The notes under the pieces are model-generated. The model was given only the letters and a program-made list of their open reading frames with translations, was not told the origin of the DNA and did not search any database. 64,000 bases of DNA from Halobaculum sp. MBLA0143 (GTDB lineage: Archaea > Halobacteriota > Halobacteria > Halobacteriales > Haloferacaceae), in assembly GCF_041361465.1 (NCBI RefSeq), contig NZ_JBGKAC010000001.1, forward strand, positions 2,418,001 to 2,482,000. Direction: 5' to 3'. Shown piece after piece: positions 19,712-45,689 of the stretch (positions within the stretch are counted from its first letter, which is position 1; the number at the start of each line of letters is the position of its first letter). The translations under genes were made by a program, and so were the position numbers.

Positions 19712-20133
19712 ACCCCCGGTCACTGTCCCTCGTCCTAAAAACCGACCTTTTTCACTCCTCGTGGTAGTTTCCTTCCACCCCGTCGGCCGGAGGGAGAACC
19801 TCGAAGCCACTAGATTTCGGAGTGACCTGGCTGTCGGTCCGATCGCTCCGTGGTCCGGTGACGAGAACGGCGCTCGCTCGGTCGCCCGGTTCGCTCGCTC
19901 GCGTACTGCACCCTGGTGTCCTGCTCCAATCGCTCCGCGCTGCTCTGCACCGCACGGGAGTGGCCGCCGGCTCCGCTCTCACCCGAGCCCAGGTGTGCTG
20001 CGTCCGTCACCGCGGGTGGTCCCGTCGGCCTCGCGCGAGGGGGGCCACACGAGGTGACCGCCGCACGCGCCGACAGTCACGGGTGGGTGTCGCTGTCGTC
20101 GCCGTGGTCACGGGGAGTCGTCGTCGCAGTGCG
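19712..20133. other. Intergenic region, 422 bp, no convincing gene
   Basis: The left edge carries a promoter-like patch for the HTH regulator (minus strand AAAAAGG and TTTTTAGG around 19735-19752). The remainder is GC-rich with open frames on both strands, but none has a recognisable protein pattern, signal or start context. No tRNA or rRNA sequence is visible. Confidence 0.4.
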
Positions 20134-20607
20134 TCACCCACTCGCGTCTGTCGTCGTCGCCCCGTCCTCACACCCCGGCGCGTCCTGGCGGAACCACAGC
20201 GACACCTCGCCGTCGGCGGATATTCGGGCCTCCACGCCGTAACACGCCGTCTCCCGCCGTCCGACCCGGAACGTCTCCCAGTCGTCTGCGCCGTCCAGCC
20301 TGACGTGCAGGGTGAACTGCCCGGGTGAGTCACCCCACCCGCCCGCCAGCCGTCTGCTCGCCGTCCCCGTCCCCCCGGCGCCGAGCTCGTGACTCGACCA
20401 GTGGACCACCTCGCCGCCCCGCTCGACCAGGACGTGAACCTCGTGAGCCGTCGCCGCCTCGTTGAGCACGCGCACGGACGACAACACCGATCCGCCGCCG
20501 TCGCCGTCGCCGGTGCCGCCGACGCTCCCGACGCCGGCACACCCCGCGAGTCCCGCGACGCCGCCCGCCGCGACCGTGGCCACCACACGTCGTCGTGTCG
20601 GCTCCAT
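20134..20607 (-). CDS. Tat-exported lipoprotein, unknown function
   Basis: The 157-residue protein starts MEPTRRRVVATVAAGGVAGLAGCAG, a twin-arginine signal ending in a lipobox with Cys23. A Gly/Asp-rich linker follows, then a beta-type domain with SSVRVLNEAATAHEVHVLVE, FTLHVRLDG and ARISADGEVSLWF. This looks like a small beta-sandwich exposed outside the membrane. No named family is recognised, though similar haloarchaeal lipoproteins are common. It is followed on the plus side by nothing coding until the unrelated gene ending at 20662. Confidence 0.75.
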   Translation of the reverse strand: MEPTRRRVVATVAAGGVAGLAGCAGVGSVGGTGDGDGGGSVLSSVRVLNEAATAHEVHVLVERGGEVVHWSSHELGAGGTGTASRRLAGGWGDSPGQFTLHVRLDGADDWETFRVGRRETACYGVEARISADGEVSLWFRQDAPGCEDGATTTDASG

Positions 20608-40191: not shown

Positions 40192-40488
40192 GTGTTGGAG
40201 GACACCGGGCCGTTGCGCGAGGAGTACCGCGAACTCACGGAGCGGCGGCTCCCCGCGGCCGCGGACGACGACTGGCCCGTCACGGAAGACCACTGTTTCC
40301 AACGGATCGTCCTGGACACGTTGTTCGAGGACGCGTGGTACGACCACGTGGACGGTCGGCCGGCCGTGCGTTCGCTGACGGCCGACCAACTGCGCGAGGC
40401 GATTCGGATCGCCGAGTCGCTGCTGGAGGACCCGGAACGGGTCGCGGTGCTGAACCGACGGAGTCTGCGGTACCGTGGGGAGCACTGA
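40192..40488 (+). CDS. Conserved small haloarchaeal protein, unknown
   Basis: The 98-residue protein starts at a GTG with VLEDTGPLREEYRELTERRL and has WPVTEDHCFQRIVLDTLFED, AWYDHVDGRPAVRSLTADQL and RVAVLNRRSLRYRGEH. It is mostly helical, with conserved-looking His-Cys and Trp-Tyr-Asp-His residues that could bind metal. I recall similar proteins across haloarchaea with no assigned function. It may share the KorAB transcript. Its C-terminus and stop codon lie inside the first copy of a 34/35-bp tandem repeat. Confidence 0.7.
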   Translation: MLEDTGPLREEYRELTERRLPAAADDDWPVTEDHCFQRIVLDTLFEDAWYDHVDGRPAVRSLTADQLREAIRIAESLLEDPERVAVLNRRSLRYRGEH

Positions 40489-40590
40489 CCTGGCAACGGC
40501 GACGGTACCGCGGGGAGCACTGACCTGGAACGGCGACGGTCCCGCCGGGAGCACTGACCTGGCAACGGCGACGGTCCCGCCGGGGGCGCT
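40469..40590. repeat. 34/35-bp tandem repeat, three full copies plus a partial, spanning a stop codon
   Basis: Copies lie at 40469-40503 (35 bp), 40504-40537 (34) and 40538-40572 (35), with a partial from 40573. The shared core is GAGCACTGACCTGG followed by AACGGCGACGGT. Copy 1 includes the stop codon of the preceding gene; copies 2 and 3 are non-coding. The first two copies carry TACCG and the later ones CCCGCC, so the array has started to diverge. Confidence 0.9.
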
Positions 40591-40693
40591 GGCTCGGTGC
40601 TAACGGAGGGCCTCGGACCCACCTCGGTGGTGCGTCCACGGGGCGGTTCCGCACGGCACAAAGGGTGAAGTGGCCGCACCCGCTTGTAACCTT

Positions 40694-45027: not shown

Positions 45028-45263
45028 ATCTGTGTCGGATGAGGTTCATTCGGTGACTCGTTCGGGCGTGGGACTACGAACAGGCTGGAAGCCCCGGCGG
45101 GGTCCACTCGCGCGGCTCGCTGCGCGCTTCGCCTCGCTCCTTCCAGTCGCTCGGCTCCAGTGCTTGCGGCGCCGTGCTTCGCGGACCGCGCCGCCCCTTC
45201 CAGTCCCACCCAGCACGGCACCGCGGCCACACCCTCCCCAACCGACTCACTCCGCTCGTCTTA

Positions 45264-45397
45264 CGTCGGAGCAAGCTCCGACGAAGTCTCGTTCGCTTCG
45301 CTCACGAGACCCTCGCGCGTGTCGTCGGGCGGCTGTGCCGCCCGACTGCAAGCGGGACCTCCGGTCCCGCTCTGCTCGCGCTCGCAGAACCGCGAGC
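45264..45397. repeat. Array of five perfect hairpins
   Basis: Successive inverted repeats: arms CGTCGGAGC/GCTCCGACG (45264-45283, loop AA); GTCTCGT/ACGAGAC (45286-45310, loop 11); GTCGGGCGGC/GCCGCCCGAC (45324-45346, loop TGT); AGCGGGACC/GGTCCCGCT (45351-45371, loop TCC); GCTCGCG/CGCGAGC (45374-45397, loop 10). All arms are perfectly paired. An earlier one, GCGGCGC/GCGCCGC, lies at 45166-45194. Such density of perfect palindromes within 135 bp is not expected by chance. Confidence 0.8.
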
Positions 45398-45600
45398 GCT
45401 GCGCGCGCCCGAGGGGACTGTTGATTCGAGCGCACGCCCGGTGACAGTCTACAGGACGCGTGCGGCGGCCCACGCGGGCCGCCGTGCGGGGAGGGGTGGG
45501 GATGTACTGGGCCCCGACTGTCCGACACGGCTCGTCGGTCGACAGTCGGGCCAGCGAACGTCCGTAGCAACCGTCCACAGGGTGGGAACGGAAGGGGCGC

Positions 45601-45689
45601 GGGGCTTCCATCCTGTTGGCACACACCGTAGAAACACAGAATCTGACGACTCGTGGGGCTTCCACCCTGTTCGCACACACCGTCCAAAC
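45601..45689 (-). repeat. Two 35-nt CRISPR-like direct repeats with 19-nt spacer
   Basis: Read on the minus strand both copies begin GTTT, share ACGGTGTGTGC and AACAGG, and end TGGAAGCCCC. They differ at 4 of 35 positions. Copies are 45655-45689 and 45601-45635 with a 19-nt spacer (period 54). The GTTT start and the xTGGAAGC end resemble haloarchaeal type I-B CRISPR repeats, but only two copies are seen and there are no cas genes. Confidence 0.6.

Follow-up and report, generated by a model that had tools for sequence, protein, structure and literature searches.

In the window, the 64-kb stretch of the Halobaculum sp. MBLA0143 genome analysed here, an element of about 0.6 kb lies in the 0.73-kb intergenic interval between a DNA ligase gene and an aldo/keto reductase gene. 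This element is one copy of a structured repeat family of Halobacteria, and we consider it probable (roughly 60%) that the family is a non-autonomous, propagating mobile hairpin resembling the REPINs of bacteria. The window copy is an inverted pair of hairpin modules, the left one intact and the right one decayed, and a 54-bp tail unit is present twice at its right end (Table 1).

The window copy and its sisters

The locus had drawn attention through a pair of direct repeats, which we confirmed: each is 35 nt long, 31 of the 35 positions are identical, and their starts are 54 nt apart, leaving 19 nt between them. On the minus strand they read GTTTGGACGGTGTGTGCGAACAGGGTGGAAGCCCC and GTTTCTACGGTGTGTGCCAACAGGATGGAAGCCCC. 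The inverted relative CGAACAGGCTGGAAGCCCC at 45077-45095, also reported from the sequence-only reading, is equally real, being 95% complementary to 45655-45673 and 94% complementary to 45600-45617 (18 nt), and a second, inner inverted pair beyond that reading was found at 45192-45211 and 45580-45599. The repeats are far from chance: with up to three mismatches, the box GAACAGGNTGGAAGCCCC occurs at three places in the 64 kb (45077-45095 and the two direct repeats), against 0.15 expected, and none of 100 shuffled sequences reached three occurrences. The earlier suggestion of a novel element bounded by such ends is supported, as these inverted boxes form the outer arms of a pair of divergent modules belonging to a multicopy family. 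Together with the 19-nt 'spacer', the two 35-nt repeats represent a 54-bp unit that was duplicated in tandem and has since diverged.

Table 1. Features of the window copy (positions are those of the window)
Feature	Position	Strand	Basis
Intact left hairpin module (foot, P1, variable P2 stem, conserved tip GCCGCAAGCAC...GCGCGCAGCGAG, closing box)	45078..45210	-	Covariance model R1
3' closing box of left module, GGGGCTTCCAGCCTGTTCG on minus strand (the inverted relative of the sequence-only reading)	45077..45095	-	Box ends modules across Halobacteria
5' foot of left module, GGGTGGGACTGGAAGGGGC on minus strand	45193..45211	-	Class-wide motif
G-rich conserved stretch 5' of foot, GAGTCGGTTGGGGAGGGTGTGGC...GCGGTGC	45218..45248	-	Common to other genera, by-eye comparison
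GC-rich palindromic centre between modules	45212..45579	.	Kept in own-genome sister copies
Decayed right module, foot GGGTGGGAACGGAAGGGGC running straight into closing box GGGGCTTCCATCCTG, hairpin lost	45580..45618	+	R1
54-bp tail unit, first copy (one of the direct repeats first noted)	45598..45635	+	Inverted/direct repeat comparison; homologous unit in sister L052
54-bp tail unit, second copy	45652..45689	+	Inverted/direct repeat comparison

The modules were scored with a covariance model, R1, built from 50 modules (see below), none of which comes from the own genome. The left module matches it over the full model length with 95.5 bits (45078-45210, minus strand; E 2.2e-19). The right module, in divergent orientation to the left one, reaches 31.7 bits (45581-45672, plus strand; E 2.7e-5) in an alignment whose 3' end is supplied by the second tail copy. 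The G-rich stretch preceding the left foot was compared by eye with other loci and with the consensus GCGAGGCTGGGGAGGcGTGAGGTGCGG of genome G126. The centre has a GC content of 0.66-0.76, and the segment 45373-45606 matches C1:2569264-2569501 at 82%.

The sequence-only reading had pointed to further copies in the genome as a check on such an element, and the whole 0.6 kb indeed recurs elsewhere. Searching the own genome with the 0.73-kb intergenic sequence returned a sister covering the full length, with 74% over 541 nt (C1:2742275-2742793), additional copies on the same contig at 2569050-2569663, 1552225-1552514, 2611522-2611875, 1521600-1521990 and 2039649-2040036, and shorter pieces; six modules of this genome score above the R1 threshold. 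The sister copies that were examined are intergenic, each beside different genes. In two of them, L052 and L053, both modules are intact (102.5 and 86.7 bits in L052, 99.1 and 84.4 bits in L053, the right module being the lower in each), and hence the own-genome element is a divergent module pair with a GC-rich centre of 0.3-0.4 kb and tail units on the outside. In L052 the 54-bp tail unit forms a perfect tandem array of 4.6 copies, 100% identical with the 'spacer' included (L052:888-1135, C1:2741887-2742134), and this identity suggests a very recent expansion of the minisatellite.

Distribution and genomic setting

The exact 19-mer foot has at least 120 matches in genome contigs, and all 80 among the matches listed are from Halobacteria. 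Among the 24 genomes of the own order, 13 contained the foot pattern (the reversed-pattern control gave 0), and the 124 genomes examined from the rest of the phylum yielded just two hits, each single and with one mismatch. R1 found matches in 26 of 40 relatives, with counts ranging from 0 to at least 84 per genome, the upper value being a lower bound as 87 candidates were scored in each genome. The family spans the class Halobacteria.

The modules are predominantly intergenic: 6 of 89 overlap an ORF under a crude ORF filter. In relation to their neighbouring genes, again by crude ORF calling, 20 lie in tandem on the same strand, 9 in tandem on the opposite strand, 12 between divergent and 7 between convergent genes, with no clear preference. 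An all-against-all comparison of 403 neighbouring ORFs gave neither an enriched transposase nor any linked protein family; the only adjacent families that recur are a zinc-ribbon protein and a putative tRNA-splicing endonuclease gene, both from one orthologous site. At loci L076, L087, L096 and L147, from several named genomes, a module occupies the same intergenic site beside the putative tRNA-splicing endonuclease gene, and its stems differ. A viral carrier was not found either: the exact foot is absent from all 2.9 million viral contigs, and phage records gave no match; four haloarchaeal plasmids give weak partial matches. The own genome has no reverse transcriptase.

Rfam has no hit in the window. 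Eight loci were also searched with E up to 1, and the single match to score above its cut-off there was a tRNA outside the elements. Searches of the open-access literature by sequence and by topic returned no description. This non-coding repeat family is apparently undescribed so far, although a prior description elsewhere is possible.

A covarying hairpin maintained on one strand

Across copies, the core module consists of a conserved foot (GGGTGGGACTGAAAGGGGC), a stem whose sequence varies greatly while its two sides match, a conserved tip and the closing box GGGGCTTTC...TGTTC. Read in order, the foot GGGTGGGACTGRAAGGGGC is followed by the first arm of the stem, a tip similar to GACGYAAGSACCGCA...GAGSRCCGCAGCGAG, the matching arm and the box GGGGCTTTC, in many copies then by ..TGTTC. 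For 108 distinct arm pairs of the stem, 8.96 of 10 positions are paired, compared with 5.90 when the arms are re-dealt among copies. In the alignment of 50 modules there are 32 base pairs, 24 of them with compensatory double changes; 95.6% of the cells are paired, and covariation amounts to 0.552, against 0.147 after shuffling (0 of 500 shuffles as high) and no more than 0.078 with the pairing slid. Since the loci were selected by foot and closing box, the invariance of both boxes and of most of P1 is there by construction, but the choice of the 50 modules involved no selection for structure in the stem, the internal loops or the tip. P1 itself varies: a G-C pair of most genera is C-G in one genus, and an A-T pair is G-C in the window.

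On the strand reading GGGGC...GGGGCTTTC, the stems contain 52 G-U pairs and 4 A-C mismatches, so that the fold of this strand is the one maintained. In ten pairs of orthologous copies (a small sample, six of the pairs representing one locus), the 5' arms show 33 differences, of which 28 are mirrored at the same position of the 3' arm. Most loci carry a single module; inverted pairs with 20-29 nt in between were seen at 7 of the 50 loci, and one more locus has a partial partner. Tail repeats accompany the modules in the genus of G126, with periods of 50-66 nt, mostly 56 nt. Elsewhere their periods are mostly 45-75 nt, with 17 hits in 118 tails versus 6 in four control offsets together.

An alternative reading is a multicopy structured non-coding RNA family, in which the G-rich strand would be transcribed and its RNA fold would serve a cellular role, perhaps with a G-quadruplex formed by GGG-T-GGG...GGGG...GGGG in the potassium-rich cytoplasm. 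The strong polarity of the wobble pairs, the covariation that extends down to the tip, the conserved sequence of the tip itself and TATA-like sequences upstream of some G126 copies all speak for such RNAs. However, the head-to-head pairs 20-29 nt apart leave little space for two divergent promoters, the orientation relative to neighbouring genes shows no clear preference, copy numbers among relatives run from 0 to at least 84, and folded DNA also tolerates G-T pairs. We rate an RNA family as the main rival, albeit a rather unlikely one. Slightly less likely again is its fuller version, namely class-wide archaeal putative RNAs in tens of copies per genome, having a hairpin closed by a GGG/GGG internal loop that adjoins a GGGTGGG foot and might form a G-quadruplex with it, a stem replaced symmetrically with boxes and tip fixed, and a spread that would involve no known transposase or reverse transcriptase.

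Presence and absence at orthologous sites

A G126 copy lies within about 446 nt of extra sequence (~0.45 kb) between convergent genes, and all five congeners (5/5) keep both genes with 10-37 nt between them. Within a 115-kb stretch common to G126 and G157, a 454-nt insertion carrying a module corresponds to 0 nt in G157. At a second G126/G157 site the element is present in both genomes and the hairpin is lost in one; at a third, the two differ by one extra tail unit and in their stems, and the flanks are conserved. One site filled in G120 has other content in G157, and there are several filled/empty pairs among named species. Copies of the family appear and disappear among close relatives in the manner of a small mobile element. 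The junctions of the filled and empty sites compared are too diverged for a target-site duplication to be read. For the window locus itself, the ligase and reductase genes are not neighbours in relatives, and the element does not adjoin the ligase gene at any other locus examined. Part of the absence from the relatives' flanks could be due to loss.

Such mobility might also be that of a classical MITE belonging to a DDE insertion sequence, its terminal inverted repeats lying around GAACAG...GAAAGCCCC. Its inverted outer boxes, its length of about 0.6 kb, its lack of coding capacity and its multiple copies would suit this well enough. We nevertheless find it improbable, given that single-module copies have no matching box at their other end, that copies are not linked to a transposase gene, and that the fold under constraint is that of a single strand and shows wobble polarity, a pattern not expected from simple terminal repeats.

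A probable mobile hairpin with features of REPINs

We therefore return to the REPIN-like mobile hairpin as the preferred reading. The recombining or recognised unit would be a single-strand fold whose parts are the conserved, G-rich foot, the P1 helix of 5 bp, an internal loop (GGG/GGG), a long stem free in sequence and the conserved tip, existing as single modules or inverted pairs. Its spread may proceed by transposition of the folded strand through an enzyme acting in trans, as in REPINs, and the stems would be changed by cassette exchange or by palindrome correction.

REP and REPIN elements of bacteria are moved by TnpA-REP (RAYT) (PMC3116915, PMC8266576). The halobacterial family resembles them in being extragenic, in its many copies with a conserved 5' foot on a hairpin and no gene of its own, in the occurrence of both single modules and inverted doublets with a short spacer, and in its single-strand polarity. 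In contrast to the REP hairpin, whose foot bears the tetranucleotide GTAG (PMC8266576), the halobacterial foot is GGGTGGGACT(G/C)AAAGGGG; its hairpin, at ~125 nt and with a conserved tip, is far larger and more complex, its stem sequence is free to change, and it is distributed class-wide in an archaeal group. In the own-genome pairs the two modules are separated by the 0.3-0.4 kb centre. Moreover, no match to the Y1 transposase (PF01797) was found in the own genome, to which this search was confined. We conclude by analogy and with moderate confidence that the element works like a REPIN, but given the different foot, the larger hairpin and a genome lacking the Y1 transposase, we do not file it as one.

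BOX, RUP and ERIC-type repeats of bacteria are likewise structured, intergenic and interspersed in many copies. As far as their general description allows, these repeats (BOX and RUP are named in PMC3049150) are set apart by sequence, size and host domain. Closer in host, the MITEs, PATEs and SMRs of Haloquadratum are transposase-free mobile repeats, some with near-terminal palindromes (PATEs) or inverted ends (MITEs, SMRs), which, in the part of the account used here, belong to one species and are either tied to insertion sequences or lack target duplications (PMC3119063). The covarying fold of the halobacterial hairpins does not figure in that part of the account (PMC3119063).

An origin-like or other protein-binding inverted-repeat locus specific to the ligase region, suggested by inverted boxes that flank about 0.5 kb, is very improbable, and an origin of replication is rejected by the GC-rich composition of the centre (0.66-0.76), by the neighbouring ligase and aldo/keto reductase genes, and by dispersed copies of the same element that adjoin unrelated genes. 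The decayed CRISPR array considered in the sequence-only reading has next to no probability left and is refuted by the own-genome sister copies, for its resemblance (two near-identical repeats of ~35 nt with a GTTT start and a GGAAGC end) is superficial: the repeats number only two, the 'spacer' falls within a 54-bp tandem unit repeated 4.6 times at 100% identity in a sister and so is not unique, the inner and outer boxes are arms of the hairpin family whose foot is class-wide, and Cas1 (PF01867) was not found in the own genome (97% complete) by a search whose control gave hits in 9 of 14 genomes.

With 32 covarying pairs, an occurrence in most genera sampled, as many as 84 or more copies per genome and no Rfam family, these hairpins constitute a large annotation blind spot in haloarchaea, and they may explain other misleading 'CRISPR-like' or palindrome calls in haloarchaeal genomes. 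They also offer natural tests, one of fast stem turnover with complementarity kept, as in the mirrored differences (28/33), and another of which enzyme moves archaeal hairpin elements.

Several minor observations accompany these results. The centre of the window copy contains several short palindromes (45260-45380), for example GTCGGGCGGC-TGT-GCCGCCCGAC, and similar ones are nested within loops in other copies, which gives the impression of small palindromes inserting into larger ones. At L056 (C1:2610700-2612700), the flanking genes are far apart or on different contigs in three genomes of the same genus, which leaves no empty site to compare, and the element may lie at a rearrangement junction. 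Elsewhere in the window, a weak R1 match at 20047-20174 on the minus strand (13 bits, E 0.37) is probably due to chance, and a 35-bp tandem repeat of 3.6 copies (40468-40591) is located just upstream of an ABC transporter gene.
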